From a virus: DNA of 25,988 bases. The stretch spans positions 1-25,988 of the IMG/VR virus record IMGVR_UViG_3300043568_001570. The stretch is one strand, 5' to 3'. Of this stretch, positions 2,552-24,452 are shown one piece after another (the stretch's first letter is position 1; each line of letters starts with the position of its first letter). The notes below the pieces were generated by a model, which saw nothing but the letters and a program-made list of their open reading frames with translations, did no database searches and was not told the DNA's origin. A program made the translations under genes and the position numbers.

Positions 2552-3328
2552 TTAAACTAAACAATGATCAGTGGGTTTGAAAAATATTTTATGAATATAC
2601 AACGATGGATTTACCCATTTGATCAATCCTGGTCCATAATATATTCTGTCAGATTCTTCGTGGTGTTTTATATGCCACGCCTGATTTCCAAATATTGGCA
2701 AATACCATGATCGGTCTGTTGCGGTGTGGTATCTATGAAATATTTGATCGTGTATTCCACCAATAATTGTTCCAAACCCTATGTAATATATGGAAATTAC
2801 TGCAAACCATTCAATGGGTAAAATAATAAAAAGTAAACCGTGAAAAATCCAAAATATTTTTTCACTGTGACTATCTAGTTTCTTTACCAAAGAATTGTTT
2901 TTGAACAAGTTACTTTTTACATACGGCAAATTGTAAGATACTGGCTTTTGAAAATTTAATGCGTATTGCCAAAACGAACTCTCCTTCATTTTTTGCTGTG
3001 GAGGGTCCAGGTCTGGTGTTTTCCAAAATCTATGATGACTTACGTGGTATGCTCTTTTGCCATCAATACTTCTTCCTGCTAATCCGTAAAACACTATTAA
3101 GCAAATAATTTCTATTACTTTGTTTCTGGGTTGAATATATTCGTGACAGATATAATCATGAGAAATTGTTTGCGTTATAGGCATCAATATCAGATGTACT
3201 AATATGGACCATAAAAAGTATTCAAATGGCAATACTATTAAGCATAAAATAATCAACAAGTGCCACGCCCACATTTTGCAGTGGTAATAGCCATAAATTT
3301 TGTAAAATTCCTGTATTTTTTTAAGCAT
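2552..3328 (-). CDS. Fatty acid desaturase-family membrane protein
   Basis: 258 residues with the three histidine boxes of membrane di-iron desaturases/hydroxylases: HDYICHEY (57-64), HVSHH (95-99) and HIKHH (219-223). These are separated by hydrophobic segments at about 22-52, 73-85 and 160-190, so it should be an integral membrane enzyme acting on lipid acyl chains or a related hydrophobic substrate. ATG at 3328 is chosen because an AATAAATA late-type box lies 20 nt upstream; there is no clear Shine-Dalgarno. It stands alone between tRNA-fMet/E5 and a radical SAM gene. Substrate cannot be told from sequence. Confidence 0.82.
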   Translation of the reverse strand: MLKKIQEFYKIYGYYHCKMWAWHLLIILCLIVLPFEYFLWSILVHLILMPITQTISHDYICHEYIQPRNKVIEIICLIVFYGLAGRSIDGKRAYHVSHHRFWKTPDLDPPQQKMKESSFWQYALNFQKPVSYNLPYVKSNLFKNNSLVKKLDSHSEKIFWIFHGLLFIILPIEWFAVISIYYIGFGTIIGGIHDQIFHRYHTATDRSWYLPIFGNQAWHIKHHEESDRIYYGPGLIKWVNPSLYIHKIFFKPTDHCLV

Positions 3329-3347
3329 AAGTGTTGGTGTTCACAAT

Positions 3348-3355
3348 TATTTATT
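3348..3355 (-). promoter_or_regulatory. Late-promoter-like box AATAAATA
   Basis: One mismatch to the T4 late box TATAAATA, 20 nt upstream of the desaturase ATG. A TTGACA at 3419-3424 has no good -10 partner. Confidence 0.35.
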
Positions 3356-3644
3356 CATATGTTAGTTGCAGTGGAGGGAATCAAACCGACCTTTATATGT
3401 ACAACAAACAACAATGATTGTCAACTGAATTTGAATAAGCTGATCATGTGACTGTCCTGCGTTTAAAGGTGCGGAATGCAAGACTGCACTCCCTTCCTTC
3501 CTGAACATGTGTTGACTGTGACTAGCAGTCTCGTGTTTTTCAACGTCAGCGGTTCAGGATTTAATCGTGGTCCCTGGCAGTCGGGCCCATAGTCAATGAG
3601 TTTTTCCGCCACATGATCTGCTTAACTTGGTGATACAATTTGTA
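3356..3644 (-). other. Gene-free stretch with nested stems and a T-arm-like remnant
   Basis: No protein gene of plausible quality. At 3362-3385 the minus strand has a T-loop-like TTTGATT without the rest of a tRNA. The 3473-3558 part forms strong nested helices, listed separately. The rest shows nothing I can name. Confidence 0.4.
3473..3558 (-). ncRNA. Candidate structured RNA Z
   Basis: A hairpin GGAGTGCA/TGCATTCC with loop GTCT (3473-3492, 8 bp) is followed, in the sense away from transcription, by three nested stems: CCTGAAC/GTTCAGG (3500-3506 with 3552-3558), GTTGA/TCAAC (3511-3515 with 3540-3544) and GACT/AGTC (3520-3530). Eight- and seven-bp perfect helices in 86 nt suggest a folded RNA. 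No promoter or terminator was found, so the boundaries are open. Confidence 0.35.
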
Positions 3645-4769
3645 TCAATATTTTAAAAATTCTTTGTGAGAGTTTGCTCGTGCATGATCTCTAAGAGAAG
3701 TCCAGTCTACAAAAAATTGCCACATCCCATGGTCCATTGGACGTTCAAGAGCGCTTTTTAAAACATTCTTGTATTGAGTTAGTGAATTTCGAATATGCAA
3801 ATCAAGCTCAAGATCAAGTGTTTGTTCTAGATGATCAATTGCTTGTTTTTTCAAATGATCTGGCAAGTTGGTAATTCGTAAATGCTTGGGATAGACCAAT
3901 AAATCCATCATTAAATGAATGTTTATGTCATGTGCCCATTGCACCAATTTGCCTATACTTAGAATATTTAGATTCTGTACTGTTGCATGTATAACTGGGT
4001 TGATATTGCTGTTGCTGACTATTTTTTTGATATTTTCTTCAACCTGGCAAAAGTCAGCTGGATAGCGAATGTATTCAAACAAGGATCCAACTGCATCAAC
4101 ACTCAGCATGATTCTCACCAGTTGAAACTTTTTTAGTGCGGCTTCCCATTCTGGAGACCAACGTGTTGCATTTGTTGAAAGATGTAACATTGTTAAATTC
4201 AGGTGTTGGTCAGAGAACTTGTTTATAATGTCCAATATTTTTTTATTGTACATTGGCTCACCGCCACGCAAATTGACCACTCTAGGAACAGTTGCTAATA
4301 TCTGTTCAAGATGATCAAACGCAGTGTCGGGCCAGGTGAAATCTTGTTGATCACTTGTAGAAACATTCAATCGTCGATTCTCTGACAGAATAGCACTGCT
4401 TGATTCTTCGTCACACATGATACAGGACAAGTTACAAAGATTCCCTACAGCAAGTTCTACGCTTAACAATTTTTGCTGAAAAGGTTTCGCCCCTAAAATT
4501 TGGTATTCTTGTGCCTGAACTTGCCTAAGGCTTGATACGTTTACATCTTCAAGTTTCCAACATGCGTTGCAACCAGGATGTTCTAGTCCTTGTTCAAAAC
4601 TTGTTTGTACTTCCTTAAGGTATTGATTGTTCTGCCACTCCAAGTGAGAAATAAATTTGATATTTTTTCTATGTTCAGCAGGGACAGGATGTTTACAACA
4701 AATTTGATAGTCGCCTCGAGGATTAACATTTACATGGTTAAATGGCAAGGCACAGTATTTGTTTGTCAT
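3645..4769 (-). CDS. Radical SAM protein, twitch/SPASM-like
   Basis: 374 residues starting at ATG 4769, where the family-like N-terminus MTNKYCALPFNH begins; an upstream extension would run back through the tRNA at 4809-4898. The radical SAM signature CNLSCIMC gives C112, C116 and C119 (CX3CX2C), followed by the GGEP motif near 168. Extra cysteines before the core (C6, C24, C25, C67, C70) could bind an auxiliary cluster, as in twitch or SPASM-type enzymes that modify peptides or small molecules. No peptide substrate gene is visible next to it. It lies alone between RNA genes. Family clear, substrate unknown. Confidence 0.85.
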   Translation of the reverse strand: MTNKYCALPFNHVNVNPRGDYQICCKHPVPAEHRKNIKFISHLEWQNNQYLKEVQTSFEQGLEHPGCNACWKLEDVNVSSLRQVQAQEYQILGAKPFQQKLLSVELAVGNLCNLSCIMCDEESSSAILSENRRLNVSTSDQQDFTWPDTAFDHLEQILATVPRVVNLRGGEPMYNKKILDIINKFSDQHLNLTMLHLSTNATRWSPEWEAALKKFQLVRIMLSVDAVGSLFEYIRYPADFCQVEENIKKIVSNSNINPVIHATVQNLNILSIGKLVQWAHDINIHLMMDLLVYPKHLRITNLPDHLKKQAIDHLEQTLDLELDLHIRNSLTQYKNVLKSALERPMDHGMWQFFVDWTSLRDHARANSHKEFLKY

Positions 4770-4808
4770 GGCAGTATTTAACACTAAATTTGTTTGTGTC
4801 AGTTTAAC

Positions 4809-4898
4809 TGGTACCAGCGGAGAGAATCGAACTCTCTCAAAGCCGCTAATCTGGCGGAAAGGGCATATAAGACCCCTCGGACTCCAAGTCTCGCTGGC
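4809..4898 (-). tRNA. Class II tRNA, apparent anticodon TAT
   Basis: Acceptor GCCAGCG/CGCTGGT, T arm GAGAG/CTCTC with TTCGATT, discriminator A, encoded CCA at 4809-4811. Variable arm CCGC/GCGG is long (class II). The anticodon stem GGGGT/GCCCT closes loop CTTATAT, anticodon TAT (reads AUA). Class II shape belongs to Leu, Ser and Tyr, so Ile identity is doubtful. The D arm is a tight GACT-TGG-AGTC hairpin. Confidence 0.6.
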
Positions 4899-4902
4899 AA
4901 AA

Positions 4903-5062
4903 ATTTTTATAGTCAAGCATCAAGAGATGCCAATTTGTCAACAAAGGTGCTTCCTCTGACAAGCGAATAGCAGTTTTATCAGGACCTGTTCCTCGCACAG
5001 TTAGGCCCGCATAGTGACAGCGTCCCGTCACGATACCTTTATTGATGCTTGACTATAAAAAT
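4903..5062 (-). ncRNA. Structured element E7 closed by a perfect 21-bp stem
   Basis: 4903-4923 and 5042-5062 are perfect inverted repeats of 21 nt enclosing 118 nt. On the minus strand the interior can fold into AAAGGT/ACCTTT, GTGAC/GTCAC, CTGT/ACAG and GCTT/AAGC helices, a multi-branch layout. It ends 4 nt before the tRNA at 4809-4898. Arm sequence differs from E1-E6, but the placement 5' to a tRNA is the same. Confidence 0.58.
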
Positions 5063-5205
5063 AAAATATTGAATTTGTTAAAGTAGCAGCACCACGTTAT
5101 TGCTGCCATTCACCCGAATTAACAAGCTCGAGCGGGAGTCGGTAAGTTACTTGGGATACCGGTCCAGTTTAGTCGCCTCAATGGACCCCTGCAGTTCCCC
5201 GCAGG

Positions 5206-5265
5206 GTGGGTGTCGAACCCATCACCTTCTACTGCTTTGGTTCTTCGAAGAAACCTAGACAGCGT
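5206..5265 (-). pseudogene. tRNA-Arg(TCG)-like remnant
   Basis: A regular anticodon arm GGTTT/GAACC with loop CTTCGAA (5239-5255, anticodon TCG) and a T-arm with loop TTCGACA (5206-5222) are present. They are separated by about 16 nt, and no acceptor strands pair. The would-be 3' acceptor instead forms its own CCCTGC/GCAGGG hairpin. Confidence 0.4.
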
Positions 5266-5296
5266 GACTTTCTCTTGCTAACACTCTAACAAAACT

Positions 5297-5366
5297 TGGC
5301 GCCCCTAACAGGAATTGAACCTGTCTACGTTCAGCTTCAAATCTGACTCGCAACACAGTCCAGGGC
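5297..5366 (-). tRNA. tRNA-like gene, anticodon uncertain
   Basis: Acceptor GCCCTGG/TAGGGGC, T arm ACAGG/CCTGT with TTCAATT, discriminator G, encoded CCA at 5297-5299. The D stem GACT/AGTC and anticodon stem TCAG/CTGA share bases, and the loop ATTTGAAG has 8 nt. GAA (Phe) is possible but not secure. Confidence 0.45.
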
Positions 5367-5372
5367 ATAACT

Positions 5373-5432
5373 TGGCGCAGAACATTTCTGTTTTTATCCG
5401 TGTCCAGGAATATTACTCCAGACAAAAACTGC
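5373..5432 (-). other. Short tRNA-like hairpin unit with GCCA end
   Basis: Sixty nt between two tRNA-like genes, with ends GCAG/CTGC, an inner GTTTTT/AAAAAC stem and a GGAGT/ATTCC hairpin, ending in GCCA followed by the same AGTTA linker as the tRNAs. There is no T loop. Possibly a collapsed tRNA. Confidence 0.3.
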
Positions 5433-5438
5433 ATAACT

Positions 5439-5530
5439 TGGGGCATCATGTGGGATTCGAACCCACGCAAGAAAACCTTGAAGATCATTCAAGGTTGAGG
5501 CAAACCGCACCCCGTTACATCCTATAACGC
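5439..5530 (-). tRNA. Class II tRNA-like gene, anticodon not assignable
   Basis: Acceptor GCGTTAT/ATGATGC pairs at all 7 positions, T arm GTGGG/CCCAC with TTCGAAT is perfect, and CCA is encoded (5439-5441). A long variable hairpin CCTTGAA/TTCAAGG is present. Only 29 nt remain for D and anticodon arms, and no 7-nt loop with U33 can be drawn. Confidence 0.45.
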
Positions 5531-5542
5531 CATAAACTAATC

Positions 5543-5591
5543 AAGAGCTTGTAGACCAAACTACAATTTACCGGTTTCTAGACGAACTCTT
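5543..5591 (-). other. Small stem-loop unit between tRNAs
   Basis: AAGAG (5543-5547) and CTCTT (5587-5591) enclose a GTAG/CTAC hairpin. No gene; function unknown. Confidence 0.25.
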
Positions 5592-5596
5592 AAACT

Positions 5597-5673
5597 TGGT
5601 GCCCCAGAGGAGACTCGAACTCCTAAAATTTGGTTTCTAAGACCAACACGTATACCAATTCCGTCACCGGGGC
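5597..5673 (-). tRNA. tRNA-Leu(TAG) by anticodon, class I shape
   Basis: Acceptor GCCCCGG/CTGGGGC, anticodon stem TTGGT/ACCAA with loop CTTAGAA (TAG), T arm AGGAG/CTCCT, discriminator A, encoded CCA at 5597-5599. The variable loop is only 5 nt, whereas bacterial Leu tRNAs normally have a long variable arm. Confidence 0.82.
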
Positions 5674-5680
5674 AAAAACT

Positions 5681-5755
5681 TGGCGATGCGTGGGAGAGTC
5701 GAACTCCCGTCTCTGGATAGACAATCCAGGATAATGACCGTTATATGAACGCACC
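5681..5755 (-). tRNA. tRNA-Asp(GTC)
   Basis: Acceptor GGTGCGT/ACGCATC, anticodon stem CTGGA/TCCAG with loop TTGTCTA (GTC), T arm GGGAG/CTCCC, discriminator G, encoded CCA at 5681-5683. The D stem is A/T only. Confidence 0.9.
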
Positions 5756-5761
5756 TAAATT

Positions 5762-5847
5762 TGGTGGACAGTAATGGATTTGAACCACTGCGCTTTTTAC
5801 AGAACGGATTTACAGTCCGTCGCCTTCAACCACTCGGCCAACTGTCC
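5762..5847 (-). tRNA. tRNA-Tyr(GTA)
   Basis: A class II tRNA of 86 nt. Acceptor GGACAGT/ACTGTCC, anticodon stem ACGGA/TCCGT with loop CTGTAAA (GTA), long variable arm, T loop TTCAAAT, encoded CCA at 5762-5764. Confidence 0.93.
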
Positions 5848-5857
5848 TAAACTTGAT

Positions 5858-5951
5858 TGCACCGCAGGGAATCGAACCCTGCACCCCCCGCATCGCCTCT
5901 CGGGTATATCTTTCGATACTAACCTGTAACGCTTCCATTACGCCAGGTGCA
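5858..5951 (-). tRNA. Class II tRNA-like gene, possibly Ser(CGA)
   Basis: T arm CAGGG/CCCTG with TTCGATT, acceptor pairing TGCACC/GGTGCA, D arm GTAA/TTAC and a long variable arm CCCG/CGGG. The anticodon stem GTAT/ATAC closes an 8-nt loop CGAAAGAT without U33. CCA is not encoded. Confidence 0.42.
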
Positions 5952-5957
5952 AAACTT

Positions 5958-6032
5958 TGGTAGAGCATAGCGGAGTCGAACCGCTCTTAGTGGACTGAAA
6001 ACCCACTGTCCTAACCGATAGACGAATGCTCC
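5958..6032 (-). tRNA. tRNA-Glu(TTC)
   Basis: Acceptor GGAGCAT/ATGCTCT, D arm GTCT/GGAC, anticodon stem GTGGG/TCCAC with loop TTTTCAG (TTC), T arm AGCGG/CCGCT, encoded CCA at 5958-5960. It is the first tRNA of its array, 7 nt after element E6. Confidence 0.92.
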
Positions 6033-7082: not shown

Positions 7083-7113
7083 GTGCAAGCAAGAGATTCT
7101 AAGTCTCTTGTGT
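7083..7113 (-). pseudogene. tRNA-Leu fragment overlapping a protein gene end
   Basis: About 30 nt here match the D-arm end, anticodon arm and variable-arm start of tRNA-Leu(TAA) at 10514-10600 with three differences. The 7-nt loop CTTAGAA would be anticodon TAG. Acceptor and T arms are absent. The stop codon TAG of the protein gene at 7099-7788 is the anticodon triplet. Confidence 0.6.
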
Positions 7114-7788
7114 TGGGACTTGTTCCGCAAGTCCTGAGTAAATTTTTCTACTACTGAATTTAACTATTTCTTCGGCGGCAACATCTCGCATTACTACCAT
7201 TCCGGGATATATAATTGCATTGTTTCCTACGCTCATAGATGGAAATCCTAAAAATCTTGAACCTATTAAAGCAATAACATTTTCTCCAAATGTCACGTTA
7301 CTACCTGCAGTACTAGCTCTTTGGAACGTAGTATTTTTTCCTATCACACAACCGTGTCCTAATCCTGCCAATGAATGCATTATACAGTGATCGTGAATCA
7401 CAACCTGGTGAGAAATCCAGGACGAATATCCAATGTATACTCCTTTGCCTAACTTGGCCCCGGGACTGATTCTGCATTGAGGATCAATAATATTTGCACA
7501 TGGCAAATTCAATTGATCAACTAGATCGACAAATTGTCTGCGGCGTTGTATAGTGCGAGGCATTCCAGCAACTGCCGTTGACCCAATGAAAAAATCATAC
7601 TTGTCAGCAGCATCAGAAAAATCAAAATCATCTTCTCTACCAACATAAGGTATGCCCTGATAGTCTGTGGTATTGCCGTAGTAGTCACTATCGACGATTC
7701 CTGCAACACTTTGCCCATTAAGATCGCAAGTCTCTGCAAATTCTGTAATTTGCTGGCCGCTTCCCAAGAACATAATTGGTTTGTTCAT
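7099..7788 (-). CDS. NeuD/PglD-like sugar O- or N-acyltransferase
   Basis: 229 residues. The N-terminal part (about 1-85) begins MFLGSGQQ and looks like the small Rossmann-type PglD_N domain. Residues about 100-205 carry repeating hexapeptide-type turns (GAKLGKGVYIG, GCVIGKNTTF, GSNVTFGENV, GNNAIIYPGM), which fold as a left-handed beta helix in acyl-CoA or acetyl-CoA transferases acting on nucleotide sugars. It fits the sugar genes to its right. Start ATG 7788 follows the tmRNA terminator. The last residues (VPTQET) and the stop codon are encoded by a tRNA-Leu fragment, so the native C-terminus was probably replaced by recombination. Confidence 0.82.
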   Translation of the reverse strand: MNKPIMFLGSGQQITEFAETCDLNGQSVAGIVDSDYYGNTTDYQGIPYVGREDDFDFSDAADKYDFFIGSTAVAGMPRTIQRRRQFVDLVDQLNLPCANIIDPQCRISPGAKLGKGVYIGYSSWISHQVVIHDHCIMHSLAGLGHGCVIGKNTTFQRASTAGSNVTFGENVIALIGSRFLGFPSMSVGNNAIIYPGMVVMRDVAAEEIVKFSSRKIYSGLAEQVPTQET

Positions 7789-7807
7789 TATCTCATTCTG
7801 TTTTTGT

Positions 7808-7836
7808 ATTTAAAAGAAACCCGCCAAAGCGGGTTC
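7808..7836 (-). terminator. Rho-independent terminator of tmRNA
   Basis: AACCCGC and GCGGGTT pair (7829-7835 with 7818-7824) around TTTG, followed on the minus strand by TCTTTT. It closes the tmRNA coding piece. Confidence 0.88.
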
Positions 7837-7878
7837 TGAGTTTCTGTTACGAGGTATGTCTTACCCTAGATTGCTTTT

Positions 7879-7911
7879 TCAAGCAGCCAATGCGAACTGT
7901 GAGTCGTTTGC
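7879..7911 (-). other. tmRNA proteolysis-tag reading frame
   Basis: Codons GCA to TGA encode ANDSQFALAA, ten residues like the E. coli ANDENYALAA tag. The resume codon GCA is preceded by TAAAA, matching the position of UAGUC before GCA in E. coli. The stop codon lies in a TGCTT-GAAA-AAGCA hairpin. The ALAA end fits ClpXP recognition. Confidence 0.85.
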
Positions 7912-8127
7912 TTTTACTTTTTTTGTGTCTACGGCCGAAATACTCCAACCCTAACGGCTTCTACATTGCCGAGTAGATCTTGTCAATACTTGTTGCCCTG
8001 TCGAATCTTTTCAAGCCCATCAAAAACATTTTGTAGTTAGAGCCGTTTTTATTCTAACCTTATGGTATTTGACTCATCTTTCGATGGTTACAAAATGTTT
8101 ATGGTGGACCTGCCGGCATAATGCTAG

Positions 8128-8151
8128 CCGGGTCCAGAACTTCTTTCTATC
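8128..8151 (-). repeat. Imperfect repeat of tmRNA acceptor-piece sequence, copy 2
   Basis: Matches 8976-9000 at 19 of 25 positions (GATAGAAA..., TTCTGGAC). It lies on the downstream side of the GIY-YIG gene and continues into the T-arm-like stem and CCA end of the tmRNA. Confidence 0.6.
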
Positions 8152-8157
8152 AAAGCG

Positions 8158-8955
8158 TTAAACTACCATACTCGTTCGCGACATACTTGATTTAAGTCTG
8201 CCACTACTAAAACCTTTAAGGACATATTCTTGCTGTTTTTCAAGTAAGATATAATGCTCCTTAACACCATTATTTACCCAAAGTTTGGTAGGAGCATGGC
8301 CTTTCTTGCCCCTTGCCCATCCTTGTGGAATAGTATCATTTATTGTAATGCGTTTTACTTCTTTTGTCAATATATTTGAAATCCAAATCTTGCCATACTG
8401 ACTATTCTTATTGCCTACCGCATTTTCACTCTGTTGTTTTTTTCTTCTTTGCATTTCATCTTCAGAAATGTTCAACCAGCTATTATTATTTTTAGATCTG
8501 TTGGATTCTACTACTTTGCTGTGCCAATTTTGCCACCACTCTGTGTCGTTGAACTTTTGCTCTGCTATAAAATCGTTCAATCGTTTTGCGCCTTTTACGC
8601 CGCCTTTGCGTGAATTAGCACTGTGTTCTTTGCTACCGTTGTAGTGATCCCATCCTCCTGTACCACCTTTGTGCATATTGTAAGTGTTGGGTCTTTTTAC
8701 AAAATCTTCAGTGACCACTTCTGCTTCTTTGTCTGCCATTTCTTCCAATGACGAGCAGTAGTATAAGACTTCTTTCTTGAAGTTTTCTATACCGTATTTT
8801 TTAATAGCGGCTGTTATTTGTTTCCCAGAGCCGTAATATTCGTTTTCAGAAGGGTGTTTGGCAGATTTATGTTTCCCGACATAGATTTTGTCGTTCAACA
8901 AGTTTGTTATTTGATAGACATAGTAATACATAAGTGTATTTATGTCAGACGACAC
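8158..8955 (-). CDS. GIY-YIG homing endonuclease
   Basis: 265 residues from GTG 8955, or 257 from the ATG at 8931. The second start gives MYYYVYQITN directly at the GIY-YIG core: YVYQITN then KIYVGKHKS, followed by YYGSGKQI, AIKKYGIENFKKEVLYY and an acidic residue in KEAEVV. The C-terminal half has DNA-binding-type repeats (GKIWISN, WVNNG...) as in NUMOD-containing phage enzymes. It is flanked by imperfect copies of a tmRNA acceptor-piece sequence and ends 6 nt before the acceptor piece. The tmRNA-type promoter lies upstream of it. It is most likely a mobile gene inserted in the tmRNA locus. No good ribosome binding site is seen. Confidence 0.85.
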   Translation of the reverse strand: MSSDINTLMYYYVYQITNLLNDKIYVGKHKSAKHPSENEYYGSGKQITAAIKKYGIENFKKEVLYYCSSLEEMADKEAEVVTEDFVKRPNTYNMHKGGTGGWDHYNGSKEHSANSRKGGVKGAKRLNDFIAEQKFNDTEWWQNWHSKVVESNRSKNNNSWLNISEDEMQRRKKQQSENAVGNKNSQYGKIWISNILTKEVKRITINDTIPQGWARGKKGHAPTKLWVNNGVKEHYILLEKQQEYVLKGFSSGRLKSSMSRTSMVV

Positions 8956-8975
8956 TTCGATGCCGCTTAAAAGGA

Positions 8976-9000
8976 CCCGCGTCCAGAATCCTTTTCTATC
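8976..9000 (-). repeat. Imperfect repeat of tmRNA acceptor-piece sequence, copy 1
   Basis: Reads GATAGAAAAGGATTCTGG then ACGCGGG on the minus strand. TCTGGACGCGGGTCC is close to the TTCGGACGCGGGTTC found before the T loop of ordinary tmRNAs. Upstream AGTAGAT is complementary to ATCTACT in the coding piece and could form helix P2, although that competes with one pseudoknot. No matching T-arm strand or CCA follows before the endonuclease gene. Confidence 0.55.
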
Positions 9001-9023
9001 TACTTCATACAGTCTTAACTTGC

Positions 9024-9052
9024 AGTATATATTTATTCTCGTATGCTGTCAA
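9024..9052 (-). promoter_or_regulatory. Sigma70-type promoter of the tmRNA/endonuclease unit
   Basis: Perfect TTGACA (9047-9052), 17 bp, TATACT (9024-9029). Start near 9017, just before acceptor-piece copy 1. Confidence 0.82.
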
Positions 9053-9064
9053 GTGGGTTTGAGT

Positions 9065-10237
9065 CTATTGAATCAGATCCAATTGTGCCAGCACAAACTT
9101 GTAGATGTTTGGTCCAATGGTGTTTTGCGCTGCTTGAAATTGATCCCGGTACTGTGCATGTATCTGTTTGGCGTTAACAACAAAATCTCGATTTTGACTC
9201 AACATACAATTTATTTTTTCAGAAAAATGTTCATGTGTCAATGGATCTATTTGATCAAAATCAAGATTCATAAATTGTGACAGGTCAACATCGTAGAATC
9301 GCTGAATGTAGCTCATGCATCCTGCAGGCCCTAGAATCAAAAACATCTTGCCCAGCAGCGCAGGCCACACGCTTTTTTCAGTGGCAAAAAAATTGGTCAT
9401 AGTAGTTTCGGGTATGATGGCCAGAGGATAGTTTATGTAGGTTCTTTCCAGGTGAAGAAAGTTTTGCGTATTGCAGCTGAGCCACACATTGTTCTCAAAA
9501 AATTGTGCAGCCATTTTGTCATGATCTCTCCTGGGCGGTGTGCCATACGGGGCATGCGATTCGATCTGCACCTGTTGACCAATTTGATATTTGTCCGAGT
9601 GATACCAGTCGTGCGAATCTTTGGGCACAGTAAGCAGTCCGTATTGATCTAGACCATGATCTACCAGGGCTTCCAGCAGTTGCTTCCTAAAAGGTTCGTA
9701 CTTGCCGGTCACGGTGAAAAAATTACTAGTGGGATCTTGATAATGTCGCCGTGACAAAATTATAGTAGGTATCCGAACGCGTTTGATGTAGTTGTACACC
9801 AAGCATTCATTCAAGATCAACCAAGGCAATTCTAGTATTTTGCATTCAAGTCCGTGCTGATCCTGATATATCAACTTGATTCTTTTTGAATCGTATTGTG
9901 TTAGCCAATACACCGCATGGTCTTGGTAGCGATTCACTATTGCAGTTAACTGATGATTTTTTTCATAGTACACATGCTCATCTTCTACCAACAGTCCAAC
10001 TTTTTTGCCTGACGCAAGCGCCGATTCAATTTGGCCAGACAAGTCACTGTAGTCCACGTCCCGATGATGGTGTTTGACATTGCCGTAACAATCAGTGTTT
10101 TTTTTAAAATCCAGTCTGATTTCAATCAGTTCAATGTCAGGTCTGTATTGACCGATTAGTCCGGGTATGTAGTAGCCCCACTTCAAGGCTGTGCTGGCCA
10201 GCTCAATGTCTTGGTAGGCGGGCCAGTAATTTTTCAC
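9065..10237 (-). CDS. Putative glycosyltransferase-like phage protein
   Basis: 390 residues from GTG 10237 (no strong Shine-Dalgarno; 15 nt after the previous stop). No membrane segment. The C-terminal part contains TEKSVWPALLGKMFLILGPAG followed by a YIQRFYDVD segment. This resembles the 'TEKt..pi..gkPFi..G......l...GF' motif of fucosyltransferase/exostosin-like enzymes and of uncharacterised marine phage proteins. The rest is not recognised. Nearby sugar genes make a role in glycan assembly plausible. It ends 12 nt before the tmRNA promoter. Assignment is weak; the reading frame is certain. Confidence 0.6.
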   Translation of the reverse strand: MKNYWPAYQDIELASTALKWGYYIPGLIGQYRPDIELIEIRLDFKKNTDCYGNVKHHHRDVDYSDLSGQIESALASGKKVGLLVEDEHVYYEKNHQLTAIVNRYQDHAVYWLTQYDSKRIKLIYQDQHGLECKILELPWLILNECLVYNYIKRVRIPTIILSRRHYQDPTSNFFTVTGKYEPFRKQLLEALVDHGLDQYGLLTVPKDSHDWYHSDKYQIGQQVQIESHAPYGTPPRRDHDKMAAQFFENNVWLSCNTQNFLHLERTYINYPLAIIPETTMTNFFATEKSVWPALLGKMFLILGPAGCMSYIQRFYDVDLSQFMNLDFDQIDPLTHEHFSEKINCMLSQNRDFVVNAKQIHAQYRDQFQAAQNTIGPNIYKFVLAQLDLIQ

Positions 10238-10513: not shown

Positions 10514-10600
10514 TGGTACGAGTAGCCGGAATTGAACCGGCATGCCCTTGCGAGCGAGAGATTTTAAGTCTCTTGTGTCTACCTATTTCACCATACTCGC
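10514..10600 (-). tRNA. tRNA-Leu(TAA)
   Basis: A class II tRNA of 87 nt. Acceptor GCGAGTA/TACTCGT, anticodon stem AGAGA/TCTCT with loop CTTAAAA (TAA), long variable arm, T arm GCCGG/CCGGC, discriminator A, encoded CCA at 10514-10516. Its centre is the source-like sequence of the fragment at 7083-7113. Confidence 0.94.
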
Positions 10601-10632
10601 AATAATCTTTTTGTTTCTTTGTAATTTTTACT

Positions 10633-11103
10633 TTAACTCAAAATCTCTAACCATGTATGGTCACCCATGTACTTTACTTGTGTCTGGTATTCATAGTCTT
10701 CAGGAGCACTACTTGACCAATCGTCGGGGCCGTTTTGTGTCAGCAAGGTATGTTGTCGACGCCGGTTCCACACCAACCAATACTGTTGTCCCATAACAGG
10801 TTGAAATTGGTACACTGCGGCATGCACTGCATCTGTAACATCTAGTCTACGCTTGATTGCTTGTGCTTGTTTTTCTAGTACTGCAACCAGTTCCATGATA
10901 CGATCGTGTTCTTGTTGTGCATACATCCTGGCATGATTGATCATTAGATCTTTTTGCTGTGTGACAGGCACCAGATCAAACTTAGGACCACCAGCTTCAG
11001 TTGGATAAGGTGTTACATTGCGATTAAAAAATGGAATCAATCCGCCGGTTGATGTAGAGTCGTAACTGTCTTTGCCTTTGACTAGGTTTGATTTTTGCTC
11101 CAT
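10633..11103 (-). CDS. DUF2452-like phage protein
   Basis: 156 residues. The start region GLIPFFNRNV, the long helix with EHDRIMELVAVLEKQAQAIKRR and the later FQPVMGQQYWLVWNRR follow the order I associate with DUF2452 proteins, common in cyanobacteria and their phages, whose function is unknown. The helix has a heptad-like pattern. ATG 11103 lies 17 nt after tRNA-Arg(TCT), and no strong ribosome binding site is seen. It is embedded in a tRNA cluster driven by the promoter at 11285-11313. Confidence 0.65.
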   Translation of the reverse strand: MEQKSNLVKGKDSYDSTSTGGLIPFFNRNVTPYPTEAGGPKFDLVPVTQQKDLMINHARMYAQQEHDRIMELVAVLEKQAQAIKRRLDVTDAVHAAVYQFQPVMGQQYWLVWNRRRQHTLLTQNGPDDWSSSAPEDYEYQTQVKYMGDHTWLEILS

Positions 11104-11119
11104 ACCATTACTTATATTC

Positions 11120-11194
11120 TGGTCCGGCGTAACAGAATCGAACTGCTATTAGGGGAGTAGAAATCCCCTGTATTATCCATTATACGAACGCCAG
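11120..11194 (-). tRNA. tRNA-Arg(TCT)
   Basis: Acceptor CTGGCGT/ACGCCGG, D arm GTAT/ATAC, anticodon stem GGGGA/TCCCC with loop TTTCTAC (TCT), T arm AGCAG/CTGTT, discriminator A, encoded CCA at 11120-11122. Confidence 0.92.
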
Positions 11195-11199
11195 ATGTT

Positions 11200-11276
11200 T
11201 GGTAGGACCTGAGTGATTCGAACACTCCACCAACAGATTATGAGTCTGCTGCTCTAACCTAATGAGCTAAGGTCCC
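11200..11276 (-). tRNA. tRNA-Met(CAT), elongator type
   Basis: Acceptor GGGACCT/AGGTCCT with a paired first position (unlike the initiator at 2317-2392), D arm GCTC/GAGC, anticodon stem GCAGA/TCTGT with loop CTCATAA, T arm GAGTG/CACTC, encoded CCA at 11200-11202. A lysidine-modified Ile reading cannot be excluded from sequence alone. Confidence 0.9.
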
Positions 11277-12666: not shown

Positions 12667-13005
12667 TTATGCAACACCACGAACATCTGTGTTCAGGTTG
12701 GGTTTCATATCGCGGATCAAACCACGCTCCAGGTTGTGGGCTTCGGTCTTGCCGCGCACCACAGCCATCACACGCACAGTGAATTTGCCAACGCCACGAG
12801 CTCGCATGGTCTCGTACAGCATCCAGCTCTTGTCTTCAGAACGCATGCGATAAAAGTGCTTGCGGCAACGAGTGATCACTGATTTCTTCACAGTGCTTTC
12901 GGTCTTGGCAGTAACACCAATGTAAAAATCAGCGCCAGACTCAATCATGTAGATCACATGAGTACGATCGGTGCGCTTTTTACGGGCTAGTGTTTTTGTG
13001 TTCAT
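12667..13005 (-). CDS. GIY-YIG-like nuclease domain protein
   Basis: 112 residues. IYMIESGADFYIGVT fits the GIY-YIG signature, R and H follow at CRKHFYRM, and the acidic catalytic position is likely E in AHNLERGLIRDMKPNLN. The whole protein is one domain of about the minimal size, without the DNA-binding tail of the endonuclease at 8158-8955, so a resident phage nuclease is more likely than a homing enzyme. The basic N-terminus (KTLARKKRTDR) may contact DNA. ATG 13005 lies only 6 nt after a TATAAT box, so the leader is very short or the message starts close to the ATG. Confidence 0.72.
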   Translation of the reverse strand: MNTKTLARKKRTDRTHVIYMIESGADFYIGVTAKTESTVKKSVITRCRKHFYRMRSEDKSWMLYETMRARGVGKFTVRVMAVVRGKTEAHNLERGLIRDMKPNLNTDVRGVA

Positions 13006-18023: not shown

Positions 18024-18869
18024 TTATTTTCCCCAGCCATTGCCCCAGATATCCACATGCAATCGTGGACTGTACCAGTAGCCACGTTTAAGTGCTTCGT
18101 CGGCCACGTTAATTCTGTTGCCGTTATACACTGACACCACGCCGCCAACAGGCATCACAAACACAGGGCCTGCAAATTCACGACTGCGATATTCGGCCAC
18201 AGCACGATCCAGTTCGTCAAAGTCCGCAGGCTTTTCTACCACAAACTTGAGATAGGTCACACCGTAGGATTCATAATCCCAGACCACATCAGGCCGTATA
18301 GCATCTGCCCAAGCTTCGCCACTCACACTCAGCTTGGGGCTGACGCTGAAAGTGATCTCACCAAACCAGTTGGCCAGATACTGTTTGAAATCTCGAGTGA
18401 GTTCTTGGGTACCATTGGTTTCAAATGTGATATGCCGCAGACCACGTTCGGCTAGAATATCCAACAGTTCTGGATAAGCACGTTGCCAGCCCAGCAAGGG
18501 CTCGCCGCCAGTGATTACCAAGTGCACGGGATTGCCGTTGGGCTGTTGCCACACACCATTGGGCAACAGTTCAGTCATGCGGTCTGCCAGTTCTTGTGCA
18601 GTGTATGTGGGACTGAGATGTTTGAAGTCTGGGTGCCATGACGCATAGCTGTCGCAGCCAGTTGTGACCAAGGGTAGTTCTTCAAAAGTCTTGTACAGTT
18701 CAACTTTCTTGGCCACTTTGTCTGCTTCTGTGGATTTTTCTCCAGGCTTGCAGCCAAATCCTGAACAGGTAAAGTTGCAACCAAACGTGCGTAGAAATAC
18801 TGAAGGAACGCCTACATAGCGACCTTCGCCTTGTGCTGAATAAAATAGTTCACTTACTTTGAGTTTCAT
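18024..18869 (-). CDS. queE: 7-carboxy-7-deazaguanine synthase QueE
   Basis: 281 residues. Begins MKLKVSELFYSAQGEGRYVG, the QueE N-terminus that binds substrate; the radical SAM cysteines are C31, C35 and C40 in CNFTCSGFGC, spaced CX3CX4C instead of the usual CX3CX2C; GGEP is at 121-124. It converts 6-carboxytetrahydropterin to CDG on the way to preQ0. The length is above the ~210-240 of many bacterial QueE proteins, owing to inserts after the cluster loop. With queD and folE in the window it supplies three steps of 7-deazaguanine synthesis. Overlaps the upstream SGNH gene by 4 nt. Confidence 0.92.
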   Translation of the reverse strand: MKLKVSELFYSAQGEGRYVGVPSVFLRTFGCNFTCSGFGCKPGEKSTEADKVAKKVELYKTFEELPLVTTGCDSYASWHPDFKHLSPTYTAQELADRMTELLPNGVWQQPNGNPVHLVITGGEPLLGWQRAYPELLDILAERGLRHITFETNGTQELTRDFKQYLANWFGEITFSVSPKLSVSGEAWADAIRPDVVWDYESYGVTYLKFVVEKPADFDELDRAVAEYRSREFAGPVFVMPVGGVVSVYNGNRINVADEALKRGYWYSPRLHVDIWGNGWGK

Positions 18870-22385: not shown

Positions 22386-22593
22386 TTGGATAAATCTTTA
22401 AAAGTTTCAGCACTGGATGTTGATCTTGATCAATTTTTTTCCATTGCAGTTTTCCAGGAGTATCGTATGGAGAATACATTTCGCTAGTTTCCATGTCAAC
22501 CAGCATCCACTTGGCAGGACACTTGGTTTTGATTGTGAGTGTCACAGCCTTGTCCAGATCAGGAACTTCAGCACCTGTTGCTAGTTTTCTCAC
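22372..22593 (-). CDS. Small protein, 73 residues, unknown
   Basis: The product contains KTKCPAKWMLVDMETSEMYSP and TPGKLQWKKID, a small beta-rich protein without recognised family. It overlaps queD by 4 nt and the glycosyltransferase by 14 nt, so it is translated in the same operon behind the promoter at 23159-23187. Confidence 0.7.
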   Translation of the reverse strand: MRKLATGAEVPDLDKAVTLTIKTKCPAKWMLVDMETSEMYSPYDTPGKLQWKKIDQDQHPVLKLLKIYPNEKI

Positions 22594-23141
22594 GCAAATA
22601 AATCTTCATTCCACTCACGATGTCCTTCGCGGAACGCCATGTTGGCTTGTGTTTCGCGAACTTCCACACGATAGCACCACAAGCGATTGGACTCGGCTTG
22701 GCCCCACATGTCAGGAATGTAAACACCATTCACATACTTGTACAGCTGATCTGCCAGACCTTCACAACCCAGCTTAGGCAGAATTGTCAGTTTGGCCAAC
22801 TTGCGCTGTTCCATTTCTTTGTAAAATGCCAGTTCAGGATCGTCTTCGGCCACCAGCAGAGTGTGATCAAATTGACTTTCTAGTACAGCCTTGAGTTCTT
22901 TAAGCCCGCCATAGTCAGCAGCCCAGTTGCGAGCATCCAGATCATTGGTACCAAAGTAAAACTTCATGTTGAAGCTGTAGCCGTGTATTAGATTACAGTG
23001 ACTATCAGCCCGCCATTGTCTATAAGCGCAGGGAAAAGAGTCGTGATACTCTTTGGTGCTGGTGTACCTATAGTTCACTGGTCTAGTGTTTTGTAAGTTT
23101 TCTTCTAAATGACGGATTAAGTCGACTGATGAGTTTGCCAT
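22590..23141 (-). CDS. queD: 6-carboxytetrahydropterin synthase QueD-like
   Basis: 183 residues, longer than the ~120 of E. coli QueD. SHCNLIHGYSF aligns with the HKCGRLHGHSF block: C49 matches the catalytic Cys and H53 a zinc ligand, while the second His of HGH is Tyr55, a change I associate with a divergent PTPS subfamily that has FPCAYRQWR upstream. DHTLLV and the final EVRET are the other PTPS motifs. It makes 6-carboxytetrahydropterin from dihydroneopterin triphosphate, the FolE product. It has its own promoter and an AGGAG site. Confidence 0.87.
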   Translation of the reverse strand: MANSSVDLIRHLEENLQNTRPVNYRYTSTKEYHDSFPCAYRQWRADSHCNLIHGYSFNMKFYFGTNDLDARNWAADYGGLKELKAVLESQFDHTLLVAEDDPELAFYKEMEQRKLAKLTILPKLGCEGLADQLYKYVNGVYIPDMWGQAESNRLWCYRVEVRETQANMAFREGHREWNEDLFA

Positions 23142-23220: not shown

Positions 23221-23616
23221 TTATGACGGCTGTTGATAGCCGGGTTGTTTGTAGTTGGCCTGGCCTGCAATAACACCACGCACACCGCCCACAGGATCTG
23301 TGCAGTCGCCTGTACGCCTGGGAATCAGATGTATATGCGGATACATCACTGTTTGTCCAGCAGCAGCACCCGAGTTCATACCCACGTTGAATGCATCGCA
23401 TTCGCCGGCTGCGACCATTCGGTTGCCTTCGGCCATGGCAGATTCAAAACAATCCTGGATCACTCCCGCAGTATTGTATTTGGGTACAAACAACAAGTGA
23501 CCATGAGTCACCGGATATCGATCCTGAAACACAGCCACATGAAAATCTGTTAACTCAGAGACTTCCAAGTTCCAGGGAGCAATTTTGTCCTGCATTGCTT
23601 GTTCTAAATCAGTCAT
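23221..23616 (-). CDS. HIT-family nucleotide-binding protein
   Basis: 131 residues. FQDRYPVTHGHLLFVPKYNT and YPHIHLIPRRTGD match the HIT fold; the active-site motif reads HIHLI, so the third His of HxHxH is absent. GMNSGAAAGQTVMY is the usual preceding loop. Likely a nucleotide hydrolase or transferase of the HIT group, or a binding protein if the loss matters. Coupled to folE by a 4-nt overlap, which hints at a link with purine or pteridine nucleotides. Confidence 0.85.
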   Translation of the reverse strand: MTDLEQAMQDKIAPWNLEVSELTDFHVAVFQDRYPVTHGHLLFVPKYNTAGVIQDCFESAMAEGNRMVAAGECDAFNVGMNSGAAAGQTVMYPHIHLIPRRTGDCTDPVGGVRGVIAGQANYKQPGYQQPS

Positions 23617-24452
23617 CGTGGTGCAAAGTCCTGTTGTAGTTTGATATTGTCAAAGAATTCTTTCTTGACACCTTGGTCCATCTTGAATGCACCTTTGAGC
23701 ACTGTGGTCTGTGTTAGACTTGAATGTGCCATGATGCCGCGATTCTCACAGCAGCCATGTGTGGCCTGAATATACACTGCTACGTTTTCACTGTCGGTAG
23801 CTTTGGAGATTTCTCGGGCAATGTCATTACACAGTTCTTCTTGAAGTGTGCCCCGGCGAGCACACCACTGAGCAATGCGAGTATACTTAGACAGACCAAT
23901 AAGTTTATTAGCAGCAATAATACCAATGTAAGCAACGCCGCTAACGGGTTGATGATGATGGCTACACATAGAACGAAGCTCGCTTCGAACAACAAGCATA
24001 CCTTCATAACGGTCTTCACTATCATTTGGGAACGCTGTTGCGTCTGGTGCTGGTTCATATCTACCTTCCATGATCTCCTTAAAATACATTTTGGCCAGGC
24101 GCCTTGCTGTGCCTTTTGAGTTGGGATCTGTTTCTCGATCAATAAGCAGTCGATCCAGCACTGTTTCAAATGCTTCGGCTGCTTCGTCGATCAAGCGTTC
24201 TTTATTTTCTTCTGTGACATATTCGCTGATGTTATCGCCTGCCCAGAAACGTTTGCCTTCACGTTTCATCTTGAAGCGAAGATGATCACCTAGGTATGCT
24301 TCTTTATAATCTTTATCGTCATCGCCTTGTTGCTCTGCACCTGCAATGATATTGTTATGTGTTTTTGATTCGGCTACAGGATGTAGTAGTTGATCTGGCG
24401 CAAATTCAGCTGTGTTGCGTAATATTTTTTCTGGTACAAATTCTTTTGTCAA
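23613..24452 (-). CDS. folE: GTP cyclohydrolase I
   Basis: 279 residues, about 60 more than E. coli FolE because of an acidic N-terminal extension (about 1-80). The catalytic domain has SMCSHHHQPVSG (C163, H166) and THGCCENRGI (C234) as the zinc site, and FIG-like AYIGIIAANKLIGLSKYTRI. It opens GTP to dihydroneopterin triphosphate for QueD. The start codon is TTG at 24452: it has a GGAG site and an in-frame stop directly upstream, so no ATG alternative exists. First gene behind the promoter at 24494-24522. Confidence 0.92.
   Translation of the reverse strand: MTKEFVPEKILRNTAEFAPDQLLHPVAESKTHNNIIAGAEQQGDDDKDYKEAYLGDHLRFKMKREGKRFWAGDNISEYVTEENKERLIDEAAEAFETVLDRLLIDRETDPNSKGTARRLAKMYFKEIMEGRYEPAPDATAFPNDSEDRYEGMLVVRSELRSMCSHHHQPVSGVAYIGIIAANKLIGLSKYTRIAQWCARRGTLQEELCNDIAREISKATDSENVAVYIQATHGCCENRGIMAHSSLTQTTVLKGAFKMDQGVKKEFFDNIKLQQDFAPR

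Follow-up and report, generated by a model that had tools for sequence, protein, structure and literature searches.

Two-piece tmRNAs of the permuted type (RF04321) are already on record for phages, e.g. Melnitz. A survey of 18,146 phage genomes contained 53 of them, 50 being marine or aquatic (PMC9004378). SegB, a homing endonuclease of T-even phages, cuts within tRNA genes. SITE-seq of the T6 enzyme recorded 83 cleavage sites, 23 of which carry the motif RAWTSGAAC, and peaks lay inside tRNA genes. Cutting is enhanced by the motif but does not strictly depend on it in vitro, and a change of Y17 or G19 kills the enzyme (PMC13096335). Seg genes carry embedded promoters for downstream genes, and at the late promoter of I-TevI lies an operator resembling a homing site (PMC2988022). 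The group I introns described for tmRNA genes all reside in the T-loop, some of them with a LAGLIDADG endonuclease (PMC11915505). In integrase islands, a regenerated target gene and a displaced fragment flank mobile DNA; Islander lists a 5′ fragment in 159 of 3919 islands (PMC4383910).

The locus described here lies on a virus record from IMG/VR, 25,988 bases long (the window, i.e. the whole stretch analysed). It shares architecture, G3.U70, CCA, tag, inter-piece spacer and phage location with the permuted tmRNAs of other phages (RF04321; PMC9004378). It differs from them in a 9-nt T-loop, an endonuclease ORF that precedes and overlaps the tmRNA, and a displaced leader fragment. This endonuclease has the domain family, Y17 and G19, 37% identity (to T6 SegB) and a place directly before a structured RNA gene in common with T-even SegB (PMC13096335; PMC2988022). 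Its C-terminus is longer, with a second WVNN repeat by our own reading of the sequence, and it is linked to a tmRNA instead of a tRNA. Unlike in SegB, a replacement RNA piece travels with it, and part of the target stays behind upstream. Group I intron tmRNAs (PMC11915505) resemble the window in the T-loop as target region and in a selfish endonuclease, whereas the window has no intron and function would be kept by replacement, not by splicing. The likeness to integrase islands lies in the regenerated gene and displaced fragment, but the window carries an endonuclease in place of a tyrosine integrase, and the T-loop of the regenerated target is not that of the original. At about 0.9 kb, the element is below the 2-kb filter of Islander and is without the integrase that this search requires (PMC4383910).

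A search of openly licensed PMC papers (CC0, CC BY or CC BY-SA, subscription papers being outside its scope) found no report of a GIY-YIG endonuclease in a tmRNA gene among the matches listed. MobE is inserted in nrdA of Aeromonas phage Aeh1, and fungal mitochondrial endonuclease ORFs replace a gene end. In these cases, as in the window, an endonuclease invades a gene whose function is retained; they hit protein genes, whereas a non-coding RNA gene is rebuilt in the window. The new part is the inserted homing endonuclease beside the tmRNA, as the permuted tmRNA of phages is itself known. With a probability of roughly 0.77, a GIY-YIG homing endonuclease of the SegB family invaded the T-loop of a phage permuted tmRNA gene, and its cassette replaces the 5′ part of the tmRNA with a resistant one.

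The tmRNA gene of the window comprises the following features.

8102 to 8167, minus strand: acceptor piece of the tmRNA, with helix strand, linker, T-arm, CAGGTCC and ACCA (RF04321)
8113 to 8131, minus strand: T-arm, its 9-nt loop TAGCATTAT (8126-8118) replacing the canonical 7-nt loop (RF04321, sequence and fold)
8019 to 8101, minus strand: 83-nt intervening sequence, the stem 8100-8089/8035-8024 extending the acceptor helix (fold)
7838 to 8018, minus strand: coding piece with the GGGCTTG acceptor strand, GATTCGAC region, tag and 3′ pseudoknot region (RF04321 and alpha_tmRNA; 8018 as 5′ limit and the lower limit ahead of the terminator read from the sequence)
7879 to 7911, minus strand: tag frame ANDSQFALAA (7911-7882) and TGA (7881-7879) (sequence)
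7817 to 7836, minus strand: intrinsic terminator-like hairpin with a T-rich tail (consensus; 2 in the region against 1.2 expected)

The order is thus, 5′ to 3′, acceptor piece with T-arm and CCA, spacer, coding piece and terminator-like hairpin. In an Rfam scan, RF04321 (tmRNA_permuted) matched end to end from 8167 to 7879 on the minus strand (84.9 bits, gathering 47, E 3.2e-15). A match of alpha_tmRNA covered 8223-7832 on the same strand (66.1 bits, gathering 50), and beta_tmRNA reached 74.2 bits with laxer filters, below its cut-off of 84. ARAGORN made no call for the gene. The phage-borne permuted two-piece tmRNA proposed in a sequence-only reading is therefore borne out by the Rfam models. 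CAGGTCC (8112-8106) pairs with GGGCTTG (8018-8012) in an acceptor helix joining the upstream 3′ piece to the downstream 5′ piece. ACCA (8105-8102) and G3.U70, the alanine identity pair, are intact. The fold of 8145-8012 yields T-stem, acceptor helix and spacer stem (-40.1 kcal/mol, z -4.1), with 1 of 200 shuffles equally good. The CCA end at 8102, the 83-nt spacer, the tag, the acceptor pairing and the T-loop of 9 nt all agree with the earlier reading. Its limit of the RNA at 8151 gives way to a start at about 8167 by RF04321. The perfect 11-bp spacer stem it described is present, with 11 pairs in the minimum-energy fold, though the complementarity is perfect over 12 bases (8100-8089 with 8035-8024). 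The proteobacterial type and the FALAA tag stand, while the lineage is unsettled, as beta_tmRNA gained more bits (below cut-off) than alpha_tmRNA (above its own). The window tmRNA belongs to a known kind, the permuted tmRNA, with an aberrant T-loop that departs from the usual, non-obligatory seven nucleotides. It presumably works in the cell. In isolate phages, blastn with the tmRNA gave only two weak 27-nt matches, both to Klebsiella phages.

Other genes of the window include 17 clustered tRNA genes by ARAGORN (774-1832, 4809-6032 and 10514-11276); Rfam did not list the one at 4809-4898 and added a weak one at 1082-1149. QueE-like, QueD-like and GTP cyclohydrolase I genes (18024-18869, 22590-23141 and 23613-24452) form part of a deazapurine (queuosine-type) pathway. 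A fatty-acid-desaturase-like ORF (2552-3328, below the Pfam cut-off) and a radical SAM ORF (3645-4916) are also present.

A motif sample of at least 120 IMG/VR virus contigs was drawn with a pattern for the tmRNA 3′ part, irrespective of any endonuclease. A structural script found a permuted tmRNA in 109 of 120 contigs among the matches listed; 105 of these were without and 4 with the endonuclease (local tblastn, among the matches listed). The script had no control run and was compared with Rfam for the enzyme-linked cases only, three of the four being Rfam hits as well (L007, L010 and L011). Eleven contigs gave no parse, some because the contig stretch is cut. Since such RNAs have been published before and occur in 109 of these 120 contigs (among the matches listed), a permuted tmRNA in a phage is ordinary as such. 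G3.U70 was kept in 123 of the 124 tmRNAs measured (125 less the unparsed L019). A spacer helix of at least 8 bp occurred in 101 of 124 relatives and in 15 of 620 shuffled sequences; the stems comprise 91 distinct sequences. The T-loop had seven nucleotides in 104 of 105 enzyme-less relatives among the matches listed. Of 120 tags parsed among relatives, 68 have 10 aa, the AND--FALAA type prevailing. Exceptionally long tags (about 28-36 aa) were seen in L011, L012, L014, L022, L036, L054, L083, L086, L111, L118, L121, L124, L136, L140, L143 and L147. Most of the long tags share one pattern, e.g. ANASTGEVTVSGKNVKFSARTAQRQSLAV, and often end in LAV or FAV, not LAA; some tag starts are uncertain. 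Some tmRNA-bearing contigs are large and reach 364 kb. Gp23, the T4 capsid family, was present in 8 of 21 records tested, namely in 8 of 9 large enzyme-less ones. It was absent from all 10 enzyme-carrying records tested, which are fragments of 15-89 kb. L050 carries a GOLLD RNA (2968-3431, 200.8 bits) on the contig of its permuted tmRNA acceptor piece.

An endonuclease ORF ending inside the tmRNA and a leader remnant upstream of it were missed by the earlier reading.

8158 to 8931, minus strand: SegB/SegE-like GIY-YIG homing endonuclease, 257 aa from the ATG at 8931 (Pfam, PHROG, identity and dN/dS)
8976 to 9073, minus strand: displaced 5′ fragment of a former permuted tmRNA, the leader up to T-stem GCGGG (local alignment)

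The stop codon TAA (8160-8158) falls within the tmRNA, which starts at 8167. The ORF is intact and matches PF19835 of the SegE type (E 5e-7) and the homing endonuclease family phrog_314 (E 3.4e-38), and the enzyme is SegB-like by sequence. Y17 and G19 are invariant in all 16 aligned endonucleases. Purifying selection is indicated by dN/dS values of 0.05-0.41, obtained from those 23 of 120 pairs whose dS was 0.02-1.2. No solved structure was matched by the enzyme profile at E≤0.01. One scan of bacterial genomes gave 68 stretches matching a pattern in genome contigs, none of which encoded a relative. The window contains a second, small GIY-YIG-like ORF at 12667-13005 (phrog_5123, E 7.7e-6). In L209, L210 and L211, a second endonuclease lineage (44-47% identity) occupies the same place. 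In L046 (7534-8277, minus strand) and L049 (731-1459), a permuted tmRNA with the TAGCATTAT loop has a diverged GIY-YIG ORF (32% identity) immediately upstream, pointing the opposite way. A different GIY-YIG ORF (30% identity) faces the 3′ end of a permuted tmRNA from the other strand in L109 (1882-2427) and L089 (2949-3494). In L036 (4001-4147), the last 49 endonuclease residues alone are recognisable ahead of a permuted tmRNA, apparently a relic left after loss of the enzyme.

A first search for relatives of the enzyme gave 44 loci, and a profile search 99, of which 80 were kept. The enzyme with a tail running into a tmRNA was present in 38 contigs among the 80, fewer independent cases than that number because some contigs are near-identical; all frames were open, with 247-270 aa from the match start. 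A CCACC end followed within 140 nt of the enzyme stop in 37 of the 38, while the remaining contig stops 10 nt past the enzyme stop. RF04321 scored above cut-off in 32. L118 was found by the script without being given to Rfam, and five others are cut by the contig end. Removal of ten near-identical or cut contigs (L003, L008, L015, L023, L024, L196, L199, L206, L207 and L208) left 28 loci. The term enzyme-less denotes tmRNAs with no match beside them, weak GIY-YIG matches being present elsewhere in the stretch in L054, L082, L089 and L109. Fifteen tail-less relatives were scanned (L026, L028, L029, L031-L034, L041, L212, L215-L217, L219, L220 and L222). None had a permuted tmRNA right after the enzyme, and tRNA genes lay within the stretch in 14. 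L032 has a cyanobacterial-type tmRNA about 200 nt away on the other strand, and L041 a standard tmRNA about 2.6 kb further on. Enzyme and permuted tmRNA are thus linked.

For the leader remnant, a 160-nt stretch immediately ahead of the enzyme was compared by alignment with leaders and T-arms of the 105 enzyme-less tmRNAs among the matches listed. The window stub scored 122, whereas none of 200 random segments exceeded 51 (the highest value among them), and the similarity of the stub ends at base 5 of the T-stem, which differs from the T-stem of the window's acceptor piece. Upstream flanks exceeded all 200 null segments in 16 of 28 loci. The other 12 did not pass the null maximum, four of them scoring 49-51 and the rest little or nothing. 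No alignment in the 28 loci ran beyond the T-loop. Those of L018, L019 and L020 end exactly at GTTCGA, and several high-scoring stubs stop short of the T-arm. The stub of L019 is identical to the enzyme-less L088 at 57 of 58 positions up to the break. Numerous enzyme-less contigs agree with an enzyme-carrying one on both flanks, and occupied and empty sites occur in related phages, e.g. L007/L164 and, clearest, L118/L086. Between L118 (enzyme) and L086 (empty), 1432 bp upstream agree at 89%, and the leader at 46 of 48 positions up to the T-arm. Beyond the leader, L118 has the enzyme, after which acceptor piece, spacer and the 5′ part of the coding piece differ from those of L086; on the tag side, 219 nt agree at 93%. 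Such a replacement tract is what homing with co-conversion would leave. L050 has a leader similar to that of the window, uninterrupted. A syntenic empty site was not found for the phage of the window itself, and the neighbouring gene (7099-7788) as query retrieved only two contigs, both 100% identical and without information on an empty site.

The reverse complement of the SegB motif, GTTCSAWTY, reads by our own interpretation as a T-loop; the main text of the SegB study uses neither "T-loop" nor "T-arm" (PMC13096335). T-arms within one mismatch of the motif occurred in 3 of 28 tmRNAs with the enzyme and in 56 of 92 unique ones without it among the matches listed (Fisher 2.4e-6, a value that overstates independence because many loci are related). 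On unique arms, the counts were 3 of 23 and, among the matches listed, 19 of 35 (p 0.002, overstated likewise); in a smaller first set of enzyme-linked tmRNAs, 1 of 21 kept the motif. T-loops of other than 7 nt were present in 13 of 28 enzyme-linked and 1 of 105 enzyme-less tmRNAs among the matches listed (p 1.3e-9), counted by eye with four that could close an extra pair left out. The T-loops of enzyme-linked and enzyme-less tmRNAs thus differ in bias. The three enzyme-linked tmRNAs that keep the motif are L021 (perfect), L190 and L233. The N-terminal domain of the enzyme is divergent in L021, an excuse that L190 and L233 lack. The TAGCATTAT loop recurs in L209, on a different stem, and in L046, L049 and L050, the last three having been fetched with a pattern that included the loop. 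A strict specificity of altered T-loops for the cassette was considered and rejected. Such loops are not specific to it because 36 of 92 enzyme-less arms (among the matches listed) also lack the motif, and L050 has the window's loop without this enzyme alongside. The 9-nt loop of the window probably reflects immunity, not damage.

Four candidate control elements lie before or within the endonuclease ORF.

9024 to 9052, minus strand: promoter-like TTGACA-17-TATACT just ahead of the leader stub (consensus scan, 11/12)
8948 to 8960, minus strand: TCGAA-N5-GTC, the tmRNA half-site GAC-N5-TTCGA in inverted form (exact match)
8937 to 8944, minus strand: CATAAATA, T4-late-promoter-like, 5 nt ahead of the ATG (consensus likeness)
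8342 to 8370, minus strand: promoter-like TTGACA-17-TACAAT within the endonuclease ORF (consensus scan, 11/12)

The outermost element is probably the old tmRNA promoter; the uninterrupted L050 has TTGACA-17-TATAAT ahead of the same leader. The inverted half-site, a possible operator, is exact in 17 of 28 enzyme loci and in 2 of 1073 background segments (both orientations). Autorepression by the enzyme is a reasonable guess because of the homing-site-like operator at the late promoter of I-TevI. The T4 late promoter consensus is TATAAATA, and ATAAATA lies just ahead of the ATG in 18 of 20 loci, a count that stands without a background figure. Of the 28 loci, 24 entered the consensus test and 23 the shuffle test of the embedded promoter. 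A sigma-70-like promoter of at least 10/12 occurred in 21 of 24, at one of two positions. It exceeded synonymous-codon shuffles at P≤0.05 in 13 of 23 non-independent loci (0.053 for the window locus), values that overstate independence because many loci are related. The embedded promoter may drive the tmRNA, and the promoters of the locus are presumably functional. L209 has a strong hairpin across the ORF start with TATAAATA within it (z -3.85). In L029 (about 3950-3985), an enzyme relative in a tRNA cluster, TCGAAC lies just ahead of TATAAATA as an inverse match to the T-arm of the upstream tRNA.

Under the preferred reading, the enzyme would act on a co-infecting phage whose tmRNA gene is enzyme-less and cut this gene in its T-arm. 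Donor-templated repair would then bring in a cassette that consists of the endonuclease gene with its internal and preceding promoter-like sites and of an entire replacement acceptor piece, altered in the T-loop. The leader of the recipient would stay upstream as a stub reaching no further than the T-loop. Thanks to its altered T-loop, the donor would escape cleavage by the enzyme it encodes, and with G3.U70, acceptor pairing and CCA intact the tmRNA could still work. We infer T-loop cleavage, transfer by homing and immunity through the T-loop from this pattern. A free-standing endonuclease might instead have come by chance into a region of tRNA and tmRNA genes, as SegB in T-even phages. The leader copy would then be an unrelated tandem duplication and the T-loop differences drift. 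Tail-less relatives do reside among tRNA genes, the ORF ending directly before a tRNA in L026 and 3 nt before one in L029, and segB of T6 ends 5 nt ahead of tRNA-Arg. Altered T-loops also exist without the enzyme, in the 36 of 92 arms (among the matches listed) given above. Such a coincidence is nevertheless unlikely, as the enzyme frame runs up to the start of the tmRNA in 38 contigs, no stub runs beyond the T-loop, L118/L086 is an interrupted gene with a replaced tract, and odd loop lengths are concentrated with the enzyme.

Decay would account for the aberrant 9-nt loop if the acceptor arm were degenerating and the tmRNA a pseudogene; a damaged arm was one guess of the sequence-only reading, and the RF04321 alignment flags some positions as non-standard pairs. 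The helices, CCA, tag and terminator-like hairpin are all present, however, together with the G3.U70 pair that nearly all relatives keep. L209 has this loop again on another stem, and odd loops are concentrated after the endonuclease (13 of 28 against 1 of 105 among the matches listed), which makes decay improbable. An endonuclease inside a self-splicing intron in the T-loop would follow the known group I intron form, whose members share this position and in part carry endonucleases (PMC11915505). Rfam gave no group I intron match at E≤1 in 7780-9100, and the stub T-stem differs from that of the acceptor piece. Splicing would not be needed because the downstream acceptor piece is already complete; the chance of such an intron is slight in the extreme.

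Beyond the homing cassette itself, an arms race may be suggested tentatively, on odds clearly below even. SegB-like enzymes would cut the T-loops of tRNA and tmRNA genes, and the permuted layout would let the acceptor piece move as a swappable module of a homing cassette. Repeated recoding to escape cleavage would lie behind the many aberrant T-loops seen in phage tmRNAs. These would include alleles that have since become enzyme-less, such as L036 with its enzyme tail only, and perhaps the GGC-type T-loops of some bacterial permuted tmRNAs.

If the invasion at the T-loop is true, a homing element would be aimed at the gene of a ribosome-rescue RNA and would evade its own cut via a functional variant RNA part, with no intron involved. 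The tRNA motif of SegB would be tied to a general T-loop specificity. Odd tmRNA T-loops would have a cause, and the tolerance of tmRNA to T-loop change would become directly testable in natural variants.
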